Source: a virus. From it: 20,628 nt of DNA. Positions 1 through 19,378 of this stretch are shown piece after piece. Within the stretch, counting starts at the first letter, position 1. Each line of letters opens with the position of its first letter. The translations under genes were made by a program, and so were the position numbers. Where the stretch lies: positions 1 to 20,628 of the IMG/VR virus record IMGVR_UViG_3300032282_005313; one strand, written 5' to 3'. A model generated the notes under the pieces. It searched no databases. It was not told where the DNA came from and saw only the letters and a program-made list of their open reading frames with translations.

Positions 1-906
1 AATTACAGGGTAAAATGTTCCCTTTGTTGTTAATACTTTACCAGAGAGAATATCTGAACCAATTGTTTGTTGTGTGCCTCTAAGTTCGTAACCACCTTCA
101 GAGATAACAGTAGAACAAATTTGCTTTAGTGTGCTATTGCTGGCAGTAGCTCCTGTATTTTTTATTTCATATCTTAGTGGCAATGAAGCTGTTGTAATAT
201 ATGTTGATGTAATTAAGTTAGCGTGATGGAATGAATGGCAATGAATTAGTTGTCCGTTGATAAGAAAACCACAACGAACGGTACCAAGACCTAACCACTC
301 AATATCCATCCAGAAAATTTGTGCTTTTGAAATATCAAGTGTTAATAACGATGGTCCAGTGCCATCTAATTTGTCAACATTCCAACTAGATTGCGAAGCA
401 CGGGTTTCTGTTAAAGAGCCAGTGACAAAAGAACGTTCAACAAAAGATAATGTTGAACCATCTAATTCAAGATAGATGCCGTTTTGCGCTCCAAAGTAAC
501 CAACACGTTGTCTAAGGTTTGCTTTTGCAGGATTGAATACGAAAGTGTTTAAATTATTAAGCGATTTACCTGGCTGATAAGAAAAAACTTTCTTAGTTTC
601 TCGTATAATTTCTGTGTTGGCTGTTGTATTAACAGTGAGGTCAATAAGACCAGCATTTGCATTATGTTCATATGTTGAACCAGCCGTGTTTGATGTTACC
701 CAACCACCATTATCTTCATACCTATGTGATGAATCAAACAGCGTAAATGGCGTCGACATTCTAGCACGACCAAACGCATCTACAGCAACACCAGAAGGAT
801 TTCCCGGTCCAACAAGATTTCCATATTGATCAGCAAGCATAATAACTTCAAAAATAGTTTTTCCATCTTCAAGATATACGTGACGATCTTTTCTAAACTG
901 AGCCAT
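1..906 (-). CDS. virion structural protein, N-terminal part (runs off window)
   Basis: An open frame of 302 codons begins with ATG at 906-904 and continues without a stop past position 1. The protein starts MAQFRKDRHVYLEDGK and contains ADQYGNLVGPGNPSG, DAFGRARMSTPFTLFDS and, further on, DIEWLGLGTVRCGF and VISEGGYELRG. This matches my memory of a conserved structural protein of T4-like cyanophages and pelagiphages, a beta-rich particle component of unassigned position. It has no signal peptide, membrane segment or capsid-targeting tag. The ATG overlaps the stop of the upstream nucleotidyltransferase gene (TAATG), so translation is probably coupled and the gene probably belongs to the late operon led by the TATAAATA box near 4890. 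The structural class is fairly sure; the exact location in the virion is unknown. Confidence 0.8.
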   Translation of the reverse strand, partial: MAQFRKDRHVYLEDGKTIFEVIMLADQYGNLVGPGNPSGVAVDAFGRARMSTPFTLFDSSHRYEDNGGWVTSNTAGSTYEHNANAGLIDLTVNTTANTEIIRETKKVFSYQPGKSLNNLNTFVFNPAKANLRQRVGYFGAQNGIYLELDGSTLSFVERSFVTGSLTETRASQSSWNVDKLDGTGPSLLTLDISKAQIFWMDIEWLGLGTVRCGFLINGQLIHCHSFHHANLITSTYITTASLPLRYEIKNTGATASNSTLKQICSTVISEGGYELRGTQQTIGSDILSGKVLTTKGTFYPVI

Positions 907-1760
907 TATCGTTTACCTTTGATTATATTAGTAATTGCACTAACTAAAGAATGTTTTTTAACTTCAGGAATATTGGTGTGAAGTTTTTCATGAAAATTGG
1001 CTTTAGTTTTATTTAAGATTTGATCATGAGTATCAGCATCAGACGCGTTCAACGTGGCATATGTTTGTAGAGAACCACCGGGATCGCCTGTGACATAACC
1101 CATACCTCTAATTGCGCCGGAAGAAGCAAAATTTTCTTCTGATAAATTCATACCCGATCTAGTATCATTAAACAATCTACGAGCATGCTCTTCGGGAACG
1201 TGCGCTGGTATTCCTTGTTTGAAAGAATTAAAATCGTTATTAACAGCGTGTTCTCTCATTTTTGATGCTGACATACCTTCAGCCCCTTCTGCATCTGGAT
1301 CTCTATCTCCAGAAGAAACAACTTTAACGCCGTGTTTAAAATGATATAAAATGTTACCAGATTTATCAGGAATACCATTATAATTATTTACTAATTCTTG
1401 AAACTGTGGAACTCTATCAGAACCAACAACAATAGTCGCTTGATCGTGTCCGGCTGCGTTCAATCTAGACAAATGTGGTATAATTGTAGGAGCTTGTTTT
1501 GAAGCCGCTACAAAATTAGTCTGTGGAAAAAACTTTCTTGCGTGTTCTAGTTTTTGATCAATACTAAGAGGATTCTTTTTTGCATCTTGAGAATGACTTA
1601 ATATAATTTCGTGTGGAGCATTTTGCTTATCTGCTAATTCTTGTACTTTATTAATAAGTTTTTCATGACCTATAGTTGGTCCAGGATTCATTCTAGCAAA
1701 AGATAAAACAACTGGATTTTTAGTTTCTTCTTCTTGTAAGAAATTTAAAAATTTAAGCAT
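906..1760 (-). CDS. HxGH-type nucleotidyltransferase with N-terminal capsid-targeting-like tag
   Basis: 284 residues. After a 10-residue leader (MLKFLNFLQE) comes a nucleotidyltransferase fold: VVLSFARMNPGPTIGHEKL (residues 17-35) carries the T-x-G-H form of the nucleotide-binding HxGH motif, VVGSDR lies at 111-116, and SASKMREH at 164-171 resembles the C-terminal (I/S)SxTxxR motif of NMN adenylyltransferases and cytidylyltransferases. The family transfers an NMP group to a phosphate acceptor; the substrate here cannot be read. NMN, a phospholipid head group or a nucleic-acid end are all possible. The leader ends in Leu-Gln-Glu, the form recognised by T4 prohead protease, so the protein may be packaged in the head and trimmed. 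The ATG overlaps the upstream gene by 8 bp. The fold assignment is solid; the role is inference. Confidence 0.8.
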   Translation of the reverse strand: MLKFLNFLQEEETKNPVVLSFARMNPGPTIGHEKLINKVQELADKQNAPHEIILSHSQDAKKNPLSIDQKLEHARKFFPQTNFVAASKQAPTIIPHLSRLNAAGHDQATIVVGSDRVPQFQELVNNYNGIPDKSGNILYHFKHGVKVVSSGDRDPDAEGAEGMSASKMREHAVNNDFNSFKQGIPAHVPEEHARRLFNDTRSGMNLSEENFASSGAIRGMGYVTGDPGGSLQTYATLNASDADTHDQILNKTKANFHEKLHTNIPEVKKHSLVSAITNIIKGKR

Positions 1761-2988
1761 TTTCTTGAGCCTGTTGCGCTTGTTGTTGTCTAAATTTACC
1801 GGCTAATAGATTTTGACGAGCAAATTCTCCCCTATTAACAAATTTACTCATATTACCGGCTTTGTCAACAACGACAGCTCCTTCTGGATCTGTGGCTTCT
1901 CCTGCAATACTGTGACCATATGGATTGTTCTTAGCCATAATTCTTGTCAGAACGTTTTTGGCTCCTTGTAGATGGCCATGGAGTTGAAAAGCTTTATCAA
2001 AATGATCTCTGTTATCGGAGATATGTTTCATTAGAGCGGCATGCTGTTGTATATATTTCTCTTTGCCTTTTTCTGTTTTCAACGCTTCAATTTTTTTGTT
2101 AGTTTGATCTGTTAACATATTAGCATAGCCTTCGGTAGAAGGCAATCCGCCTGCTCTGACCATTTGATTTACATGCTGTTCCATTGCAGCGCCATGGCCA
2201 GCCAATGCATCAGGAGCTTCTGGTTTCATTTTCGAATACGCTATTCTAGCATTTTCCATATGATTTAAAAATTCTTTTTGTTCTTCTGGTGTGTAGTTGG
2301 AAGGATTGATGTCTATTCTTGGGTCCACATGATGTACATCCGGATGATCTTTGAATTGTTCTCTAGTTTTATCATCTAATGGAGAAGCAGACATACTAGT
2401 CAAATCGCCTTTACCAGTGTATTTTGTGTGTGTGACTATCCCCAAACTAGAATTTTTAATTTTTTTACCTTCAGGACTATTTGTGTCCTGGGAATATGTT
2501 ATAGTATTTGGTGTAAAATTATATCTACCATTTTTACTTTGTATATCTTCTGGAGTATGTAAAACATCGCCTTGATAAACTCCACCATTTTTTGGCATTA
2601 TTTTTGGTAATTCTCTCAAAGCGACTTTTAATTTTTCTGCTAACCCAGGTGCATGACCATGGTTAGCGTCTATATCTTCTTCTGTATAATTAATTTTGGG
2701 AGTTTTATTAAAAGCTCCTTTAGTTGCTACGAAAAATTGTTTAGTTGTTGGATGAACACCATAAACAATTGATGGCGCTCCATCCCATTTTGTTGAAATG
2801 TGTACATCGCCTTTTTTACCAAGTAATGCATTATGCACAGAATTTAAATGTTGGTCGGCTAAAGCAACTCCTTCATGACCATCATATATGGCATTATCTT
2901 CCAAATGCCTTAGATGCTTTAGTTTTTGACCTTCTGAAGGAGCTTGTGGTTCTTCTAAAATAAATTGTCTAAAATTAAGAAGACTCAT
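1753..2988 (-). CDS. ligase-like (KxDG) protein, DUF6267-type, with capsid-targeting-like tag
   Basis: 411 residues. STKWDGAPSIVYG (residues 65-77) matches motif I of the covalent nucleotidyltransferase superfamily (DNA/RNA ligases, capping enzymes), with Lys67 as the candidate adenylylated residue. FVATKGAF (about 85-92), VYQGDVLHT (about 140-148) and SLGIVTHTKYTG (about 180-191) could be the following strands, but canonical motifs III-V are weak, so activity is uncertain. I recall similar phage proteins annotated as DUF6267. The C-terminal half is helical and charged and ends in a Gln/Ala-rich tail. The start reads MSLLNFRQFILEEP: the tag ends in Ile-Leu-Glu, a gp21-like cleavage site. The ATG shares one base with the stop of the gene before it. 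It is likely a late, head-packaged protein. Confidence 0.7.
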   Translation of the reverse strand: MSLLNFRQFILEEPQAPSEGQKLKHLRHLEDNAIYDGHEGVALADQHLNSVHNALLGKKGDVHISTKWDGAPSIVYGVHPTTKQFFVATKGAFNKTPKINYTEEDIDANHGHAPGLAEKLKVALRELPKIMPKNGGVYQGDVLHTPEDIQSKNGRYNFTPNTITYSQDTNSPEGKKIKNSSLGIVTHTKYTGKGDLTSMSASPLDDKTREQFKDHPDVHHVDPRIDINPSNYTPEEQKEFLNHMENARIAYSKMKPEAPDALAGHGAAMEQHVNQMVRAGGLPSTEGYANMLTDQTNKKIEALKTEKGKEKYIQQHAALMKHISDNRDHFDKAFQLHGHLQGAKNVLTRIMAKNNPYGHSIAGEATDPEGAVVVDKAGNMSKFVNRGEFARQNLLAGKFRQQQAQQAQENA

Positions 2989-4214
2989 TATATTTTTCCT
3001 TCTCCTGGACCATAAAAAGAAGTTCCTCCATGTTCTCCAGAAGGAATTAAATTTTTTTGATCGTTTTTTGTTTCTCTTATATGTGTATCTATATGTTTTT
3101 TAAATTCTTCAGCATGAGAAGCGTCCAATAAATTTCTGTGATTTTCTGGATCATTTGTATGTGCTGCTGCATATTCTCTCATTCTAAAACTATTTGGTCT
3201 ATGGAAAGCCAAAGATCTACCATTGGTAGTTTTGCCCACAGCAATAGTTCCGTCCATATTAGCCAAATCTTCGGGGGTTAAATGACTTAATGCAGTTTTT
3301 CCTTTTAACTCATTCCCAACAGTAAATGTTGTTCCTATATCATTTTTCATATCATGGACATGAACAACATTAGATTTAATTGAATCGAAATATTTTTTAG
3401 TCATACCAGTTGGAGCTTTGGCAGAAAATCCTTTTAAAATTTTACCATTTCTGTGTTCTCTGTTCAAATATTGAAGTATAGGCTCTCCATTTACATGAGC
3501 TTTTTTCATATGTTCAGCAATTTCTGGGTCAGAATGAGAAATGTTCCAAGAACCTTCCTCTGGATTGTTTTCTTTTGGAGTCCAAAACAATTTCGCGTTT
3601 CCCATAACTCCTTTATCAGCTTTCGATTCACCTCGTACAATTGGTTGCCATTGTTCTTCTTCATCTTCGTCGGTAGTTTTTAATACTCCTTTGGCGCTTG
3701 GACTTTTTTTAACCTTTTCCCCTTCAACTAAAGGGGGATATGCAAAGTCGTGAGATTCTTTACTGGAACCAGCGCCAGCTCCGCCAAGATTTTCTGCAAG
3801 TTTATTTTCAATGTCAAAAGCTTTTTGTGTAACTCTAGAGCGTTTCAAATGCTGAGGTTTTGCTAACCTAGACATAGGAATATCTCCATGATGAGCTGTT
3901 TGAACCATGACTCTACCATTATCGATATGCGCGCCAACAGCTTTAATTGGTGTTCCTGGAGCTAAATCTCCATGTTTCTTAGCTAAAACGTGAGAATATT
4001 CTGAGTCTGGTTCTTGATTATGACTAGAGAATATTCTTTCAGGTTTTGTGATATTATCGCCCATATTAATAATTGCTTTATGCAACTGCTCTTTATTTAA
4101 AAAAGGAGCAACATAGGCTAAAAGATGACTGATAGTTTTATACGAATCTGCTCCTTGCAGAGAACCTCTCATTGCAACTTCTTGTTCAGTAAGATACTCT
4201 AAAAAACCTCTCAT
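2988..4214 (-). CDS. unknown late protein with capsid-targeting-like tag
   Basis: 408 residues, function not recognised. It opens MRGFLEYLTEQEVAMRGS, the same tag seen in its three neighbours, ending in Leu-Thr-Glu. The rest is polar, His- and Lys-rich and lacks membrane segments. A Gly/Ala-rich stretch (GGAGAGSS, about 143-150) and an acidic Asp/Glu run (about 181-187) look like linkers between an N-terminal domain and a C-terminal one holding NAKLFWTPKENNPEEGSW and DGTIAVGKTTNG. The dipeptide KT within the latter does not make a Walker A motif. T4-like phages carry comparable long proteins of unknown role beside the ligase-like gene. Single-base overlaps on both sides place it in one translationally coupled operon. 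It could be a substrate-binding or DNA-binding partner of the packaged enzymes. Confidence 0.65.
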   Translation of the reverse strand: MRGFLEYLTEQEVAMRGSLQGADSYKTISHLLAYVAPFLNKEQLHKAIINMGDNITKPERIFSSHNQEPDSEYSHVLAKKHGDLAPGTPIKAVGAHIDNGRVMVQTAHHGDIPMSRLAKPQHLKRSRVTQKAFDIENKLAENLGGAGAGSSKESHDFAYPPLVEGEKVKKSPSAKGVLKTTDEDEEEQWQPIVRGESKADKGVMGNAKLFWTPKENNPEEGSWNISHSDPEIAEHMKKAHVNGEPILQYLNREHRNGKILKGFSAKAPTGMTKKYFDSIKSNVVHVHDMKNDIGTTFTVGNELKGKTALSHLTPEDLANMDGTIAVGKTTNGRSLAFHRPNSFRMREYAAAHTNDPENHRNLLDASHAEEFKKHIDTHIRETKNDQKNLIPSGEHGGTSFYGPGEGKI

Positions 4215-4861
4215 TATACTTTCCTTGTCGTAATACTAGTCTTTCCTGTTTCTGGATCATGCTGAACGTGATGAGCGTGAAATTCTACGTCTGGGTATTT
4301 CTTTTTTAAAGACAACATTGCGTTTAAATTATCGATTGAATCGTCGTATAAATGAACCTTATTATACCCATTAGTATCTATAGCATTTGCAATTACTGTT
4401 TTTTTATTCTCGGCTGGACTTTTACCGCCAAGATTACCTGCTCTTCTAACATGCATGTTACCGGGACTTATATCAATTCCATATTTACCCATATGTTGAG
4501 CAAATTTATCTTTATTGTCTAGATCGCTTCTGGCAGTAAGTAATTCTACCTTACCACCATTTTTTTTAATAGCCTTTAATTTAGCTAACATTTTGCGAAT
4601 TGGCTTGGCCGACTGACCAAAAACATCCGATGATTGAAATTCTCCAAAATCGTAACTATGACCAGCTGGTAATTTATGAGTGTTAAATTCTTGATTTGTT
4701 AGAGTTCTGACTCTATTACCTTGTGGATCTTTTACATGAACACGCAATTTGCTGTGATCATGAGCAAATAATGTTTCGTCTATGTCCGAATAATGTATAG
4801 TGTTAGGTTCTGATTTCGGAGCTTTTTCTTCTTCGAACAAATATTCTTTAAAAGATTTCAT
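4214..4861 (-). CDS. HAD-superfamily phosphatase with capsid-targeting-like tag
   Basis: 215 residues. HAD motif I is HYSDIDETL (Asp26 nucleophile, Asp28 general acid), motif II is ELLTAR (Thr109), motif III is probably Lys147 or Lys153/154 in KSPAENKK, and motif IV is LYDDSIDNL (Asp173, Asp174 for Mg2+). All four catalytic elements are present. The arrangement resembles the 3'-phosphatase half of phage polynucleotide kinases, but there is no kinase domain, so a nucleic-acid end, a nucleotide or another phosphoester are all possible substrates. The first residues MKSFKEYLFEEE form the tag shared with three downstream genes and closely resemble the T4 internal-protein leader. It is the first gene of the late operon, 26 nt after a TATAAATA box. 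Confidence 0.82.
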   Translation of the reverse strand: MKSFKEYLFEEEKAPKSEPNTIHYSDIDETLFAHDHSKLRVHVKDPQGNRVRTLTNQEFNTHKLPAGHSYDFGEFQSSDVFGQSAKPIRKMLAKLKAIKKNGGKVELLTARSDLDNKDKFAQHMGKYGIDISPGNMHVRRAGNLGGKSPAENKKTVIANAIDTNGYNKVHLYDDSIDNLNAMLSLKKKYPDVEFHAHHVQHDPETGKTSITTRKV

Positions 4862-4886: not shown

Positions 4887-4894
4887 TATTTATA
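4887..4894 (-). promoter_or_regulatory. T4-type late promoter box
   Basis: On the minus strand the box reads TATAAATA, the exact T4 late promoter -10 element used by gp55 with the gp45 clamp. It lies about 26 nt before the ATG of the HAD phosphatase gene and has no -35 element. It follows a rho-independent terminator, so the tagged-protein cluster would be a separate late transcription unit. Confidence 0.75.
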
Positions 4895-4900
4895 AAATAG

Positions 4901-4927
4901 AAAAAGGCGGAGATTGCTCCCCGCCTT
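4901..4927 (-). terminator. rho-independent terminator
   Basis: Minus-strand AAGGCGG (4927-4921), a 10-nt loop, CCGCCTT (4910-4904) and then T-rich sequence. The 7-bp GC-rich stem followed by TTT, C, TATTTT fits an intrinsic terminator for the replication operon or for the putative small RNA upstream. Confidence 0.75.
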
Positions 4928-5043
4928 CTATGACTTGTTAAACGTGTATCGGGAGAAACCCCAACCTATACCCCGACTGTTCCTTCGCCTTGTTAAAGAC
5001 ACTGTGCCACATGCGCTGCAGGCGCAAAACACGCTCAACCTTG
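4901..5043 (-). ncRNA. candidate small late RNA between a late box and a terminator
   Basis: The stretch between a TATAAATA box (5049-5056) and the terminator at 4901-4927 has no convincing gene: the only frames are 24-36 codons without a ribosome binding site. It is more GC-rich than its surroundings. It contains possible hairpins, TGCGC/GCGCA around a CTGCA loop near 5010-5025 and GGG/CCC near 4955-4967, and a repeated CTTGTTAAA on the plus strand. A transcript of about 145 nt is predicted. It could instead be a leader, a short-peptide gene or a plain spacer. Confidence 0.3.
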
Positions 5044-5048
5044 TGCAT

Positions 5049-5056
5049 TATTTATA
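5049..5056 (-). promoter_or_regulatory. second T4-type late promoter box
   Basis: TATAAATA on the minus strand, 3 nt after the stop of the 57-aa gene and about 120 nt before the terminator stem. The match to the late consensus is perfect, but no recognisable gene follows before the terminator. Confidence 0.55.
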
Positions 5057-7922: not shown

Positions 7923-8155
7923 ATTTTGTTTTTGTTGCCCTCAATATATTCATCCATCTTTTTGATGAATTGTTTTATTTTCTTTTCTCTGTTGGGCCAT
8001 TTGATATATTCTTGTTCTGGATTCTTCATAAGATTATTTAACAGCGGCATAATCATTTTTCTTAATCCCAGAAGTTTTTCATAATTATCAATTTCTCCCG
8101 CTTTTATTTCAACCTCGTCCATGGTAGTAAAACCAAAATCGTCTTCATCATCCAT
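7919..8155 (-). CDS. small acidic conserved protein downstream of DNA polymerase
   Basis: 78 residues from the ATG at 8155, chosen because GGAGG lies 8 nt upstream; the frame is open 15 codons further, but those codons overlap the polymerase end. The sequence begins MDDEDDFGFTTMDEVEI and continues with helices containing KLLGLRKMIMPLLNNLMKNPE and YIKWPNREKKIKQFIKKMDEYI. I recall relatives in the same place behind gene 43 in T4-like cyanophages; their function is unknown. The acidic FGF-containing N-terminus followed by a helical hairpin looks like a protein-protein adaptor. It overlaps the polymerase C-half by 8 bp. Confidence 0.8.
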   Translation of the reverse strand: MDDEDDFGFTTMDEVEIKAGEIDNYEKLLGLRKMIMPLLNNLMKNPEQEYIKWPNREKKIKQFIKKMDEYIEGNKNKI

Positions 8156-9254
8156 TAAAGAAATCCTCCAATGTTGAAGTTTTCTCAACCTGCCAATCAA
8201 TTACTTCTGTTATTGATTTAAGAGGTTCAAGAAAAGCTTTTGTGAATTGTAATTCTCTGTCAATATACTTATCAAGGTTAAATTCTTCTGGTAAATAATC
8301 AGCAACAGCAATAACAGTATCCTGAATTGGATTAGGAATTTTTAAATAGGCAAATTTAATTTTGTCGCCGTCCTGAATTGGTGGTATGTTTTTGATACCA
8401 TATTTGTTTAACATATGATTGAAGAGTAATGCTCCTTTAACTTGTATTGGAGTTCCTTTTTCATAAATGTTTTGTTTGTCGCGATATTTTGCAAGTCCTT
8501 TTATTCCTCGAGGAAATGCTACATCTTCAAATGGCAGGGTTAAAAACTCTGTTTTGGTTTCAGAAATATATTTCTGCAGTTCTTCTTCAGTACCATTCAT
8601 AATGATATTCAACGCTTCTTTAATAGCCTTTCGGCATGCATATGGAGTTGAAGAACGAACAGCCTCAATACCCTGCATTTTTAATTTGGGTTCGTTATAT
8701 TGCACCCCTTCAATATTCCATGCATTCAGGATATACATTTTTTTCGCTTTCCAAATGCCTTTGTTGGCAATTGTTTCGCGTTTCATCTGCATTTTTTGCT
8801 GATATGCATTCATATATTCTGCTAACTTGGCATAGCAAGAATTTATGTATGGTTGTATTTTACTTTCAACAAATTTATCAATTATAGAAACAATTTCTTT
8901 TTCATGTAAATTTGAACCAATAGAGGCAACAAGAGGTTCAAATGTGACATAGATTGAATCTGTATCTGAGGCAATAACATAATCAACATCATCAGTTTTC
9001 ATAACTTTGTTCATGAACAAATTCATATCGCGTTCAATCCAACGAATTGAGAGCTGACCAGAAGTTGTAATTGCCTCTGCGTGATTAAAATTGAACCAAC
9101 GGAAATATTCGTTTCCCAAAGCACCATAGGCAGAATTTAACTGAATTTTTTTACTTAATTGAAAATTGTGATGTCTAGAAGCTTCTTTTATTTTAACTTC
9201 CCGCAATTTCAATAATTCTTGTGTGCTCATATTTTGAATTTCTATTTCTTGCAT
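8148..9254 (-). CDS. 43B: DNA polymerase gp43, C-terminal half (split gene)
   Basis: 368 residues if the first ATG is used; ATG 9230 is another candidate and neither has a clear ribosome binding site, so coupling to the HNH gene is possible. It carries family B motif B, LSKKIQLNSAYGALG (33-47), and motif C, IASDTDSIY (94-102, Asp97 and Asp99), then the thumb. It ends EKTSTLEDFFNG, a sliding-clamp-binding peptide like the gp43 C-terminus of T4/RB69. The exonuclease domain and motif A (catalytic Asp387 of the N-half) are encoded in the separate upstream gene at 9754-11220. The break falls in the fingers helices between motifs A and B. The two polypeptides would have to associate to make an active enzyme, as reported for the split gp43A/gp43B of some Aeromonas phages. 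Confidence 0.92.
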   Translation of the reverse strand: MQEIEIQNMSTQELLKLREVKIKEASRHHNFQLSKKIQLNSAYGALGNEYFRWFNFNHAEAITTSGQLSIRWIERDMNLFMNKVMKTDDVDYVIASDTDSIYVTFEPLVASIGSNLHEKEIVSIIDKFVESKIQPYINSCYAKLAEYMNAYQQKMQMKRETIANKGIWKAKKMYILNAWNIEGVQYNEPKLKMQGIEAVRSSTPYACRKAIKEALNIIMNGTEEELQKYISETKTEFLTLPFEDVAFPRGIKGLAKYRDKQNIYEKGTPIQVKGALLFNHMLNKYGIKNIPPIQDGDKIKFAYLKIPNPIQDTVIAVADYLPEEFNLDKYIDRELQFTKAFLEPLKSITEVIDWQVEKTSTLEDFFNG

Positions 9255-9729
9255 GTCTAATCTTTGCTGCCTCGCTCATTCTCTTTCTTGATTCAATTGA
9301 TCTTTTTTTACCTCTGTTACTTTCAGCAACTGAAGCAATATGACTTTCATTTTTTCTTTTACCAGATAAAGCTTTTTTAATTTTTTCTCTGTGTTCTTGA
9401 GAAAGAATTTTACCTGTTTGCGCTTTTCTATTATTTTCAATATGTTCCTTAGAATGTTTGACGCCTTTTTTGGATATTGAAATTTTTTTCCTGGTTTCTT
9501 CACTCATTAATTTACCAGTGTTTGCTAATCTAGAAGCTTCTCTAGCAACTTCCTCGCATTTTATTCTTTTTAATAGACCATTCCAGGCCAAATAATCTTG
9601 CCATTTACCATAGGTTTCCCAAAGAACTCTATGAGCTTCTGCATGTTCTTCAATTGTTAATTCTACAATATTTTCTTTATCAGCAGAACCACCCATATGT
9701 TTTGGAACAATGTGATGTTTGTGTTTCAT
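9193..9729 (-). CDS. HNH homing endonuclease with NUMOD3 repeats, inserted in gene 43
   Basis: 178 residues. The HNH core is KHHIVPKHMGGSADKENIV (His5/His6, Asn20) with LTIEEHAEAH (His29, His33). Three or more NUMOD3-like DNA-binding segments follow: MSEETRKKISISKKG, LSQEHREKIKKALSGK and RSIESRKRMSEAAK. It has its own AGGAG before ATG. The frame runs about 60 bp into the polymerase C-half, so its last residues (after about HARNR) are polymerase sequence read in another frame. No room exists outside the frame for a group I ribozyme core, and an intein is excluded by the stop before it and its own start. A free-standing homing gene that splits gene 43 is the best reading. Confidence 0.88.
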   Translation of the reverse strand: MKHKHHIVPKHMGGSADKENIVELTIEEHAEAHRVLWETYGKWQDYLAWNGLLKRIKCEEVAREASRLANTGKLMSEETRKKISISKKGVKHSKEHIENNRKAQTGKILSQEHREKIKKALSGKRKNESHIASVAESNRGKKRSIESRKRMSEAAKIRHARNRNSKYEHTRIIEIAGS

Positions 9730-9753: not shown

Positions 9754-11220
9754 CTAGAAGTTATTTATTCCTCTTTTTCTCAATTCGTTTTCTATTTTTT
9801 CTATATCTTTCTTAGATTCAATCATCATTTTCTTATATACATTTCTATCCTCATACATCTTTTCCATCAGGCTTGGAAGAAACCCCTGACGTTGTTTGAA
9901 ATATCTACAGCCATTTGCAGCCGCTGCTGTTTTTTCATCATGATTGACGAATCGACCTTTAAGAAGATCGTCAATTGATGGGAAGTTTTGTTCGCGGCGG
10001 CTGAACATTTCTGGAGAAATATTATATTGCATAATCAGATGTGGATATAGACTGTTGAGGTCAAAAGAAACAACCCATTTACTCAAACCAATCTTTGGTT
10101 CCTTGACATATCCACCAACGAGAGATTGATCCATTGATTGTTTTTTCATTTGTGGAATGACAAAACTGTTATCAAGAAGATAATTGTGGATAATAATATC
10201 CCATGGCCTGACAGTAGTCATAGTATCGTTGTAATTGACTTTGGCGTCATAAGCCAGAGCTAATACAAGTTCTATAAATTTGAGTTTATCTTCTAAACGA
10301 TCAACAAGAGTACAATCATGAATATTATATTCTACGAATTTTTGATAATTGTTTTTATATAGTTCTAATAGATTACCATATTCAGAATAATCAATTTTCT
10401 TTTCACCAAGCTCTTCTTGTGCAATAAAGTCCAGTTTGTAAGATTCTTGATTGCCAAATGTAAATTTACGATACAAATGATAATAATCTAGAATAGAAAT
10501 ACCAGCTGGTGTATAACTTTGATTCTCTTTACCCTTAAATTCTACTGTTTTTTCATCAAGAATACCCCATGGAGAAAGCTTTTTTGCTTCTCGTTCTCCA
10601 AGAATATTTTTGATTCGATTAACAATATAAGGAATGTCAAAAAACTCAATGTTCCAGCCAGTGACAATATCTAAGTCAAGAGACTGCCATCGATCAATAA
10701 ATTTTGTTAGAAGTTCGTATTCGTCTTTACAATGAAAGTAATATACGTTTTCGTCTTTGGTTGAAAATTCTCCACAACCATACACGTAATATTTGTTTCG
10801 ACATTTAATTGTAATGGCAGTGATTTCCTTATCAGCCTTTGCGATGTCAGGAAATCCTTCGTCAGCCGCACATTCAATATCAATTGTTGCAATACGTACG
10901 ATACTTGGATCGTAGTTTAATTCGCCTTTAAAATTATCATAAATGTATGTGTATAGGAAATTTGTTAGACCATAAATTTCCATATTGGCGACACCATCAT
11001 ATTTCTTTACGAAATTACGAGCATCAGAAATGCTATCAAAATCAATTTTTGAAACTTGTTTACCGTCTAACGTAAAATACTTGTATTTACTTTGCTTGGG
11101 GCTTTGAATAAAAAGATATGGTTTATACAGAACAATATCTTTTACGCGAGATCCTTTTGAATAACCCCTGACGTAAACTTTATCTCCTCTAGAAAAAATA
11201 TTTGTATAGAAATCTATCAT
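9754..11220 (-). CDS. 43A: DNA polymerase gp43, N-terminal half: 3'-5' exonuclease and palm motif A
   Basis: 488 residues from ATG 11220, chosen because GGAG lies 5 nt upstream; a TTG seven codons earlier is less likely. The exonuclease motifs are Exo I ATIDIEC (Asp114, Glu116), Exo II GWNIEFFDIPY (Asn190, Asp195) and Exo III VEYNIHDCTLVDRL (Tyr298, Asp302). Polymerase motif A is SFDLNSLYPHL (Asp387). The frame then enters the fingers (MYEDRNVYKKMMIESKKDIEKIENE) and stops after LRKRGINNF, where the HNH gene begins. The normal continuation reappears at about 9245. All catalytic residues of the exonuclease are intact. A sigma70-like promoter and a 14-bp inverted repeat lie around the start. Confidence 0.94.
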   Translation of the reverse strand: MIDFYTNIFSRGDKVYVRGYSKGSRVKDIVLYKPYLFIQSPKQSKYKYFTLDGKQVSKIDFDSISDARNFVKKYDGVANMEIYGLTNFLYTYIYDNFKGELNYDPSIVRIATIDIECAADEGFPDIAKADKEITAITIKCRNKYYVYGCGEFSTKDENVYYFHCKDEYELLTKFIDRWQSLDLDIVTGWNIEFFDIPYIVNRIKNILGEREAKKLSPWGILDEKTVEFKGKENQSYTPAGISILDYYHLYRKFTFGNQESYKLDFIAQEELGEKKIDYSEYGNLLELYKNNYQKFVEYNIHDCTLVDRLEDKLKFIELVLALAYDAKVNYNDTMTTVRPWDIIIHNYLLDNSFVIPQMKKQSMDQSLVGGYVKEPKIGLSKWVVSFDLNSLYPHLIMQYNISPEMFSRREQNFPSIDDLLKGRFVNHDEKTAAAANGCRYFKQRQGFLPSLMEKMYEDRNVYKKMMIESKKDIEKIENELRKRGINNF

Positions 11221-11268
11221 GTCAACTCCAAGAAAAATCAAAGAATATTATAAACTAGAGGAGATAAA
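11179..11268. repeat. 14-bp perfect inverted repeat flanking the polymerase start
   Basis: TTTATCTCCTCTAG at 11179-11192 and its exact complement CTAGAGGAGATAAA at 11255-11268, 62 bp apart. One arm lies in codons 10-15 of the polymerase N-half; the other lies in the spacer of its promoter. A read-through transcript from the upstream DUF1127 gene could fold so that the ribosome binding site and start codon sit in the loop, whereas a transcript from the local promoter would lack one arm. Confidence 0.7.
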
Positions 11269-16568: not shown

Positions 16569-16919
16569 ATGAACAACGTCAAAGATCAAGTCAGAGTTCA
16601 AGTCTATGATCAAGTCTGGTATCAAGTCTGGCATCAAGTCGGGGATCAAGTCGTGAATCAAGTCTGGGATCAAGTCTGGGATCAAGTCTATGATCAAGTC
16701 GACGATCAAGTCTTGAATCAAGTCAGGGATCAAGTCTATGATCAAGTCTGGGATCAAGTCTTGAATCAAGTCAGGGATCAAGTCTGGGATCAAGTCTGGG
16801 ATCAAGTCGACGATCAAGTCTTGAATCAAGTCAGGGATCAAGTCAGGGATCAAGTCAGCAATCAAGTCTGGCGTCAAGTCTTGAATCAAGTCTATAATCA
16901 ACTAAGAGAAATGACATGA
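16569..16919 (+). CDS. Asp-Gln-Val-x tetrapeptide repeat protein
   Basis: 116 residues made of 26 x-Gln-Val-x units (Asp or Asn usually before Gln; Trp, Arg, Leu, Tyr or Asp after Val) between a short MNNVK start and an end reading VYNQLREMT. There is no signal, membrane segment or known fold. A period of four does not suit a coiled coil; a beta-solenoid or disordered array is more likely. Every Gln codon is CAA, every Val in a unit is GTC, and nearly all units begin with GAT or AAT, so the repeats are young or held at the DNA level. I recall similar DQV repeat proteins in uncultured phages, all of unknown function. The gene has its own promoter and ribosome binding site. A truncated relative starts in its stop codon. 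Confidence 0.8.
   Translation: MNNVKDQVRVQVYDQVWYQVWHQVGDQVVNQVWDQVWDQVYDQVDDQVLNQVRDQVYDQVWDQVLNQVRDQVWDQVWDQVDDQVLNQVRDQVRDQVSNQVWRQVLNQVYNQLREMT
16584..16895 (+). repeat. 26 tandem 12-bp units, nATCAAGTCnnn
   Basis: Exact 12-bp periodicity with an invariant CAAGTC core, and a GATC (Dam-type) site in most units. Higher-order repeats occur: the triplet of units reading LNQVRDQV appears three times and DDQVLNQVRDQV twice (near 16703 and 16811), which points to unequal crossing-over or slippage. There are no spacers and the units are too short for a CRISPR. Confidence 0.9.
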
Positions 16920-17934: not shown

Positions 17935-18825
17935 ATGGCCAAGGCCGCTAAGACTGCTACCAAGAAGATCGAGAAGCTGACCCCGGAACTGGAGGCTCAG
18001 ATGGAAGTCTATCATGACCGATGGATCGACATCGGTCTGAGCACCGCCAACATCGAGCGTGAACGCGCCACCGATGCCGTCAAGCTCATGTACAAGTGTG
18101 GCGGTCTGGAAGCTCCAGACGAGCTCGTGTTCGTCAATGGTCCAATCGAAGCGTTCAAGCTTCTCAAGGATCGTAAGGTCGTCAAGAACGTGGACGACTT
18201 CCTGAGTTCCATTGTCTTCGGCTCCAACGAGGCCGGTTGGCTTTCCTTCTACAACTACTTCCAGGAAGTCTGCGACATCCGCGAGTGCGACAAGCTGAAC
18301 GGTTTGTTCGAGGTCGCCAAGACCTGCGGTTGGGTGTCGGTGTTCGACAAGCTCGCCGTGGTGCAGGAGCGTCCTCTCCACATCAAGATGGACGAGCAGA
18401 ACCGTCTGCACTCTGAGAATGGTCCTGCCATCCTCTTCCGTGACACGTTCTCGGTCTACGCCTGGCACGGCGTTCGTGTCCCTGCCGAGTGGATCCGCGA
18501 TAAGAGCCTGGACGCCAAGACGGCTCTGACCTGGGAGAACATGGAGCAGCGTCGTGCTGCCTGTGAAATCCTTGGTTGGAACAACGTTCTCAAGGAACTC
18601 AAGGCTAAAGTCATCGACGAGGACGAGGACCCGATGATTGGCACCCTGCTGCGCGTCAACGTGCCCGACATCGGTGAGGAGCAGTTCCTTCGCGTGCTCT
18701 GTGGTACCGGTCGTGAGTTTGCCATCCCGGTGCCGCCGACGGTCAAGACGGCATTGCAGGCAAATGCCTGGACTTGGGATATGTCTCCAGTAGAATTTGG
18801 TGAAGGTCCTGAAATCAGAACCTAG
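17935..18825 (+). CDS. DUF6745-like protein with a replaced C-terminus
   Basis: 296 residues from ATG 17935 (GGAG 9 nt upstream); an in-frame GTG at 17872 would add a Pro/Phe-rich leader without an obvious signal. The domain is marked by RLHSENGPAILFRD (about 157-170), YAWHGVRVPAEWI (175-187) and a later FLRVLCGTGREFAIPVPPTVKTALQANAWTWDM. These blocks match my memory of DUF6745; its function is unknown. The last 17 codons (from about 18774) are AT-rich and differ from the rest, while a displaced, GC-rich alternative tail occurs at 19446-19520 after an endonuclease gene. The protein remains intact because the insert supplied its own tail. Confidence 0.75.
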   Translation: MAKAAKTATKKIEKLTPELEAQMEVYHDRWIDIGLSTANIERERATDAVKLMYKCGGLEAPDELVFVNGPIEAFKLLKDRKVVKNVDDFLSSIVFGSNEAGWLSFYNYFQEVCDIRECDKLNGLFEVAKTCGWVSVFDKLAVVQERPLHIKMDEQNRLHSENGPAILFRDTFSVYAWHGVRVPAEWIRDKSLDAKTALTWENMEQRRAACEILGWNNVLKELKAKVIDEDEDPMIGTLLRVNVPDIGEEQFLRVLCGTGREFAIPVPPTVKTALQANAWTWDMSPVEFGEGPEIRT

Positions 18826-19378
18826 GTTTTCTCCCTCTTATAAAACCAGACGGACAAATTTTTGATTTTATTTCTATTTGTCCGTCTGTCCACCAATAAT
18901 ATCCCTTATTTTGTTCACTTTTAATTCTTTTTGATTCTTCGGTATGATGTTTTCCATAAAATGAATTTGTAGAACCAGTTTGGCGTTCAGATATAAATTT
19001 TCTTATTTCTGGTCGTTTGCTAGCATTATTTCTTTTCATCTTTTCTATAGTTTCTGGCCTATGTTTTCGAATAATATATTGTTCTCCTCCTATGTTAGCA
19101 TTTAACCAACGATCTGATTTAAGAACTTTTAATCTTCGTAGAACTTTGGTTTCCCAACTCTTGGCCATTTCTTGGGTATCGAATATTTTTCGTATCTGAA
19201 TAATATCTGGTTCGCCGTATTGCTTACGAAATTCTTTAACTATATAGGATGAAGTAAAATAAGTTGTCCACAAATCTTTTGTAGAACAATTTTTAGCATA
19301 TCTAGAACCATAATAATGTCTATCGATTCTAGACCATGATATATAATATGTGTAGGGTTTATAAATAATATTTGACAA
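18815..19378 (-). CDS. GIY-YIG-like homing endonuclease with NUMOD3
   Basis: 187 residues, beginning with TTG (AGGAG 7 nt upstream); no ATG lies near. The N-terminal domain PYTYYISWSRIDRHYYGSRYAKN (8-30) is a divergent GIY-YIG core (Y-x-Y-Y-I ... Y-Y-G-S-R), followed by DLWTTYFTSSYIVKEF and MAKSWETKVLRRL (Glu77 as the likely metal ligand) and WLNANIGGEQ. The NUMOD3-like segment TGSTNSFYGKHHTEESKRIKSE binds DNA. I recall this family in many T-even-type phages. It overlaps the DUF6745 tail by 11 bp in the opposite direction. A perfect 12-bp inverted repeat lies in its 3' end. Confidence 0.85.
   Translation of the reverse strand: MSNIIYKPYTYYISWSRIDRHYYGSRYAKNCSTKDLWTTYFTSSYIVKEFRKQYGEPDIIQIRKIFDTQEMAKSWETKVLRRLKVLKSDRWLNANIGGEQYIIRKHRPETIEKMKRNNASKRPEIRKFISERQTGSTNSFYGKHHTEESKRIKSEQNKGYYWWTDGQIEIKSKICPSGFIRGRKPRF
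18847..18888. repeat. 12-bp perfect inverted repeat inside the endonuclease 3' end
   Basis: CAGACGGACAAA (18847-18858) and TTTGTCCGTCTG (18877-18888), 18 bp apart. On the minus strand it is followed by GTTTTAT, so it could terminate leftward transcription within the last codons of the endonuclease. On the plus strand it could form a 3'-end hairpin for the DUF6745 message. Confidence 0.6.
19360..19367 (+). promoter_or_regulatory. late-promoter-like box inside the endonuclease gene
   Basis: TATAAATA on the plus strand, antisense to the start of the endonuclease gene. A terminator at 19530-19554 lies between it and the next plus-strand gene, so a role is uncertain and a chance match is possible. 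Confidence 0.25.

Follow-up and report, generated by a model that had tools for sequence, protein, structure and literature searches.

A candidate capsid-targeting leader on an enzyme operon of a T4-like environmental phage

Four consecutive genes begin with a common leader

We analyzed a 20.6 kb viral fragment with 25 putative genes, IMG/VR record IMGVR_UViG_3300032282_005313 (positions 1 to 20,628; this whole stretch is called the window), focusing on four consecutive open reading frames (ORFs) on its minus strand at 906-4861. They lie downstream of the T4-like replication gene gp41, and their ends touch or overlap. Gene 1 of this operon (4214-4861) encodes a HAD-superfamily phosphatase of 215 amino acids, followed by a 408 amino acid protein in what we call the hypervariable slot (2988-4214), a 411 amino acid DUF6267 protein with ligase-like covalent nucleotidyltransferase motifs (1753-2988) and a cytidylyltransferase-like nucleotidyltransferase of 284 amino acids (906-1760).

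According to the original prediction for this locus, made from the letters of the window, the four proteins share an N-terminal pattern. Indeed, their N-termini (MKSFKEYLFEEE in the HAD protein, MRGFLEYLTEQE in the slot protein, MSLLNFRQFILEEP in the DUF6267 protein and MLKFLNFLQEEE in the nucleotidyltransferase) each match M-x(2-4)-F-x-x-[YF]-[LI]-x-E. Only these four of the 25 genes do so, and a six-frame scan from all start codons of the window returned the same four matches. All on the minus strand, the leaders are MKSFKEYLFE in the HAD protein (4832-4861), MRGFLEYLTE in the slot protein (4185-4214), MSLLNFRQFILE in the DUF6267 protein (2953-2988) and MLKFLNFLQE in the nucleotidyltransferase (1731-1760), whose virion-detected orthologues carry the same type of leader. 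A motif this short and degenerate might reflect chance or compositional similarity of N-termini. Shuffled N-termini matched at about 2e-4 per gene, against four of four consecutive genes here, and columns conserved among diverged relatives also contradict this explanation, which we regard as extremely improbable. A signal peptide was considered and rejected, as the leader has no hydrophobic run.

We wondered how well the leader is preserved. In relatives it is retained while linker and body diverge. Of 11 relatives, at least 90% have F4 of the HAD leader, and close relatives carry leaders such as MIKFSQFIVE, MQTFKDFILE and MKSFKSFLTE. Across 58 leaders, position 4 is F/Y in 58/58, position 7 F/Y in 58/58, position 8 L/I in 56/58 and position 10 E in 58/58, with varying residues in between; these leaders were selected by a regular expression that fixed E, allowed F/Y at the first position and would also have accepted L/I at 7 or V/F/M at 8, alternatives that occurred hardly at all. 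When 16 DUF6267 proteins were aligned with no leader filter, the alignment has F in 14/16, F/Y in 13/16, L/I in 15/16 and E in 15/16, and then runs into a gap-rich linker. In the AlphaFold model of the DUF6267 protein (predicted local distance difference test, pLDDT, 89.3), residues 1-23 are the only ones below 50, as expected if the tag is removable.

The strict leader was kept at 29/39 sampled DUF6267 contig loci and at 4/20 sampled cytidylyltransferase contig loci, the others having a looser form (MKSFLERLQDE) or none. It also heads the cytidylyltransferase orthologues of P-SSM2, S-SSM7, ACG-2014a and S-CRM01. A possible tagged enzyme outside the operon is a RimK-like ATP-grasp protein (Melnitz-3 gene 2, L090:82-1131), which starts at TTG with MTQKFSQFITEEP.

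The leader resembles the T4 capsid-targeting sequence

The T4 internal proteins IPII and IPIII start with MKTYQEFIAE. For this capsid-targeting sequence (CTS), a review of Black's work states that the first 10 residues are enough for packaging, and that T4 mutagenesis assigns targeting mainly to residues 4 and 7 and processing to residues 8 and 10 (PMC9026906). The same review already suggests that T4-like phages can use the CTS to package a variety of proteins (PMC9026906). The proposal that the leader of the four proteins is a head-targeting signal of the T4 (IPII/IPIII) type is well supported, as the conserved positions 4, 7, 8 and 10 match the T4 mutagenesis, the leader co-occurs with the prohead protease gp21, its carriers have unrelated bodies and leader-bearing enzymes appear in published virion proteomes. 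The predicted gp21 cut lies after E10 in the HAD protein and after E12 in the DUF6267 protein.

Leader-bearing enzymes occur in cyanophage virions

We compared the leader with the proteome of cyanophage S-CREM2, in which 52 proteins among 219 coding sequences were detected in virions (PMC10665884). The motif of the original prediction matches 3/219 coding sequences, with 0.05 expected by shuffling, and all three products are virion-detected (P 0.013): the SAM lyase gp6 (Pfam S-AdoMet_lyase 2.3e-19), the kinase gp14 and the cytidylyltransferase gp154. With a slightly broader regular expression, set before the S-CREM2 sequences concerned were seen, 4/5 matches are virion-detected (P 0.012). Specificity was lost with the looser pattern needed to include gp13 (MKDLHSFLTE), which gave nine matches, five of them in virions, with 3.5 expected by chance. 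As an observation on the same genome, the virion-detected gp12 (L094:7704-10313, minus strand), annotated as Cas9-like, has LRFASFMAEA at about residues 17-26, not at its start; its neighbors gp13 and gp14 (VKRFDAFLTE) are tagged virion proteins too.

The cytidylyltransferase has been detected by mass spectrometry in virions of four cyanophages, namely S-SM1 (PMC3037559), S-SZBM1 (PMC9146016), S-SCSM1 (PMC9602691) and S-CREM2 (PMC10665884). All four proteins carry the leader: S-SM1_190 (MKKFSAFLNE), S-SZBM1_140 (MRFRQFIIE), S-SCSM1_91 (MKSFLQFLKE) and S-CREM2 gp154 (MKNFSSFLTE). None of these four papers, as searched, discusses a targeting leader, and in the open-access literature we found no paper that applies the CTS to cyanophage-type enzymes or describes DUF6267.

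Could the leader instead act as a docking helix that joins the four enzymes in one complex within the infected cell, their presence in virions being contamination or incidental? Its carriage by all four proteins of one operon would fit, as would the occasional fusion of DUF6267 to the cytidylyltransferase. We nevertheless hold this to be very unlikely, since the same leader stands elsewhere in other genomes (on a SAM lyase, a kinase and an ATP-grasp protein), is found on T4 internal proteins that are proven to be packaged and marks the virion-detected proteins of S-CREM2.

A number of observations weigh against packaging through the leader. The DUF6267 proteins of the marine cyanophages Syn1, S-PM2, S-SZBM1 and S-SM1 lack it, as do many marine cytidylyltransferases, and the untagged DUF6267 protein of S-SZBM1 is not in its virion list. 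Conversely, S-SZBM1_191, S-SZBM1_192 and S-SCSM1_30 bear the leader and yet are missing from the recorded virion proteins; S-CREM2 gp199 fits the broader regular expression only, yet was not virion-detected, and further virion proteins are without a leader of this kind. In the view of the S-CREM2 authors, their virion enzymes could be co-purified contaminants (PMC10665884), a reading against which the leader common to these enzymes argues. Reports of a cleaved N-terminus are lacking for these protein families, and for the phage studied here the presence of the four proteins in particles is likely by analogy with its relatives. Finally, gp21 (S77 prohead protease, PF03420) was not found in the 20.6 kb fragment. 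Our search did recover it from 14/14 named phages tested and from 12/24 relative contigs, including every one >100 kb, so that the case for a gp21 gene in this phage, judged from related genomes, is strong but not direct.

The original prediction had regarded leaderless homologues as damaging. Such marine DUF6267 and cytidylyltransferase genes do exist, and we confine the claim to tag-bearing lineages. They imply that tag and enzyme are separable. Marine cyanophages have an untagged DUF6267 protein and, in many cases, a tagged cytidylyltransferase, whereas both are tagged in the lineage of the window, suggesting that tags are gained or lost gene by gene. The cytidylyltransferase of the Escherichia jumbo phage fEgEco12, chosen as a control without gp21, lacks the leader, yet this phage encodes an S77 protease, from which we conclude that the tag is optional and nothing more.

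Taken together, we consider it likely that the four proteins are packaged in the head by means of a T4-type CTS. The original prediction had them packaged, trimmed and injected: leader conservation and the virion proteomes of relatives favor the first of these, while cleavage by gp21 and injection are steps that we infer.

The tagged operon has predicted late-gene signals

Upstream of the operon we found the T4-type late promoter TATAAATA as an exact match at 4887-4894 (minus strand), 33 nt from the ATG of the first tagged gene. A second exact TATAAATA lies in the same intergenic region (5049-5056, minus strand), as does a hairpin resembling an intrinsic terminator, with 12 pairs and a T-run, between the replication genes and the operon (4902-4929, minus strand). 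In contigs L001-L004, L143, L148, L150, L135, L136 and L179 the promoter sequence likewise precedes the first tagged gene, by 30-35 nt; several other relatives have no TATAAATA at that distance. By these predicted signals the tagged genes are late genes with a T4-type late promoter of their own, set behind a terminator-like hairpin.

Downstream, an ORF that runs off the window (1-906, minus strand) encodes a virion structural protein (PHROG 1645, 2.5e-110) with no leader. In the late block of relatives a Dps-like protein (HFHWNV/GFHWNV) is found downstream (L136 11195-11641, L143 10300-10749, L002 11970-12407), perhaps another packaged protein that protects DNA. The minus strand of the window also carries uvsX, gp41 and gp43, replication genes of T4-like type. 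Between the two parts of gp43 (8148-9254 and 9754-11241) lies an HNH-type ORF (9193-9729, minus strand), which is likely an inserted homing endonuclease gene. Near the other end, an ORF at 18815-19378 (minus strand) resembles a homing endonuclease (GIY-YIG-like, judged by eye). The plus-strand frame at 16569-16919 encodes a protein made almost wholly of short DQV(W/R/Y/L) repeats, and the open frame on the opposite strand consists of DLIPDLI repeats.

The position between HAD and DUF6267 is hypervariable

Among DUF6267 loci the slot holds proteins of family A (the kind in the window), of family B, other unrelated proteins or nothing. Profiles of the two families, A and B, align with each other over the leader alone, the first 17 residues (E 4.7e-4). 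Contigs L143 and L148 illustrate the exchange: they are 96.3% identical in the HAD protein, 98.3% in DUF6267, 96.6% in the cytidylyltransferase and 99.0% in the following gene, whereas their slot proteins belong to different families and are 25% identical overall, with leader and C-terminal tail in common. By these comparisons the tag is modular. Like the leader, the tail can be shared by both unrelated families: it contains SGEHGGTSFYGP (window 2988-3040; also at the C-termini in L148 and L143 and in L141 2777-4123) and is 77% identical over 53 amino acids between L143 and L148.

Relatives of the window's slot protein were found in L148, L222 and L002. We gathered slot proteins by their position in DUF6267 loci, since scans of viral contigs with the slot protein and with its alignment gave no new relatives; tblastn of the HAD and slot proteins against 50,697 phage records likewise found nothing. 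The original prediction had left this partner unnamed, and no Pfam, PHROG or PADLOC assignment was obtained for slot proteins; a weak PADLOC match of L202 to UzuA (6e-4) was not relied on. The structure model of the slot protein (pLDDT 44) was too poor to use. An HDF ... RGESK arrangement in the window's protein, with HDF...GESK also in L148 and a similar one in L222, together with the invariant residues E27, D159 and S174-x-K176 of family B, leads us to describe slot proteins tentatively as PD-(D/E)XK nuclease-like.

The putative cargo enzymes have intact motifs and several possible roles

The HAD phosphatase, the KxDG ligase-like protein and the nucleotidyltransferase of the original prediction all had matches in family searches; PDB sequence searches gave no relevant match for any of the proteins. 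The HAD protein matches Pfam Acid_phosphat_B weakly (1.8e-6, just above the cut-off) and PHROG 415, a polynucleotide kinase family (2.5e-6). It has the full set of DxDxT, T/S, K and DD catalytic motifs of HAD phosphatases, and its catalytic residues D26, D28, T30, T109, K153, D173 and D174 are invariant in 11 relatives. The ligase-like protein belongs to Pfam DUF6267 (PF19782, E 6.6e-92). In alignments of 13 and 16 sequences, K67-x-D69-G70 (motif I), E369-G370-x-V372 (motif IV), K382 (motif V) and R386 are invariant, a motif pattern of the covalent nucleotidyltransferase (ATP-dependent ligase) superfamily type. The nucleotidyltransferase belongs with the phage cytidyltransferases (PHROG 3041, 1.7e-56; PHROG 395, 1.9e-40) with PTIGH and SASKMRE motifs; T29, G31, H32, S164 and R169 are invariant, so that TxGH and SxSKxR of the HIGH superfamily are intact.

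These identities allow an end-healing cargo, in which the HAD protein would strip 3' phosphates, a P-loop kinase of relatives would phosphorylate 5' ends and DUF6267 would seal cut RNA, such as tRNA cut by an anticodon nuclease, or DNA. The invariant KxDG, EGxV and K motifs of DUF6267, the intact catalytic residues of the HAD protein and its polynucleotide-kinase match are in line with this. Foldseek with the confident DUF6267 model gave no match at E 0.001 or better, and its non-significant ranking placed T4 RNA ligase 1 first and other RNA ligases after it (E 0.14-1.2). Compared with an RNA end-repair set of the T4 Pnkp and Rnl1 type, the window has phosphatase-like and ligase-like proteins, and the kinase occurs in relatives only: Pelagibacter phage HTVC008M has a separate zeta-toxin/AAA_33-like P-loop kinase in the same cluster. 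RNA repair sets of ligase, kinase and phosphatase are known from jumbo phages (PMC7824862). However, no fold match is significant, the HAD match is weak and a HIGH-type nucleotidyltransferase is not a known member of RNA repair sets. We regard end healing as rather unlikely.

Alternatively, the packaged nucleotidyltransferase might be a nicotinamide mononucleotide (NMN) adenylyltransferase, joined in relatives by a NadR-like kinase, that restores NAD+ depleted by host defence, the other tagged proteins being separate cargo. The intact TxGH and SxSKxR motifs would suit such an enzyme; the S-SCSM1 orthologue is annotated as an NMN adenylyltransferase, and the L222 nucleotidyltransferase runs into a P-loop kinase-like region, recalling the HIGH nucleotidyltransferase-kinase fusions that make NAD+ in jumbo phages (PMC7824862). 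On the other hand, no solved-structure match gives a substrate, the window holds no nicotinamide phosphoribosyltransferase and the fusion of the cytidylyltransferase to DUF6267 in L168 is left unexplained. NAD+ or nucleotide rescue seems rather unlikely too. We give the same weight to a third option, several effectors that act independently of one another, as to either end repair or NAD+ rescue.

Discussion

Our preferred explanation is that this T4-like (Kyanoviridae-related) phage probably has the four proteins as internal head proteins, each with an N-terminal CTS. The operon would be read late in infection from its own late promoter, and the leader would bring each enzyme to a docking site in the prohead scaffold core, where gp21 would cut after L/I-x-E. 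The enzymes would remain in the head during DNA packaging and enter the next cell together with the DNA. The constant cargo would be the HAD phosphatase, the ligase-like DUF6267 protein and the HIGH-type nucleotidyltransferase, with one slot for a rapidly exchanged, probably nuclease-like protein. Its most likely role would be counter-defence or repair of nucleic acids or nucleotides at the very start of infection, ahead of phage gene expression.

We speculate, at somewhat under an even chance, that freshwater and marine T4-like phages load a multi-enzyme counter-defence set into the capsid, comprising a constant trio and an exchangeable nuclease-like slot that share one transferable tag and are injected together. 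If true, these phages would deliver a system for repair or anti-defence in the form of protein. The leader gives a sequence rule to predict head-loaded proteins of T4-like environmental phages. It would also account for the cytidylyltransferases, SAM lyase and kinase in cyanophage virions, about which the S-CREM2 authors were undecided between cargo and contamination. Moreover, it points to unstudied effectors, among them the ligase-like DUF6267 and the proteins of a slot whose hypervariability is typical of an arms race.

T4 has already made the targeting mechanism itself known. What is new is that it extends to an operon of enzymes that includes a hypervariable slot, together with the account of puzzling cyanophage virion enzymes. 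T4 IPI is an injected anti-restriction protein, and IPI, IPII and IPIII are processed by gp21. The T4 internal proteins have the same type of leader (MKTYQEFIAE in IPII and IPIII against MKSFKEYLFE and others here), with the same key positions; they too are expressed late and keep the leader while their bodies diverge. In contrast, they are small, basic and encoded by scattered genes, whereas the proteins described here are large, enzyme-like and encoded in one operon with a swap slot. The packaged ADP-ribosyltransferase Alt of T4 is likewise a head-carried enzyme that is N-terminally processed, injected and acts on the host at once, but its leader has seven residues and the enzyme is a different one. 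The cyanophages S-SM1, S-SZBM1, S-SCSM1 and S-CREM2 have the orthologous leader-bearing cytidylyltransferase in their particles, while in marine relatives the HAD and slot proteins are missing and DUF6267 is untagged. The RNA repair and NAD+ restoration sets of jumbo phages similarly use ligase, kinase/phosphatase and HIGH nucleotidyltransferase as counter-defences, but are described as expressed after infection and not as tagged capsid cargo (PMC7824862).

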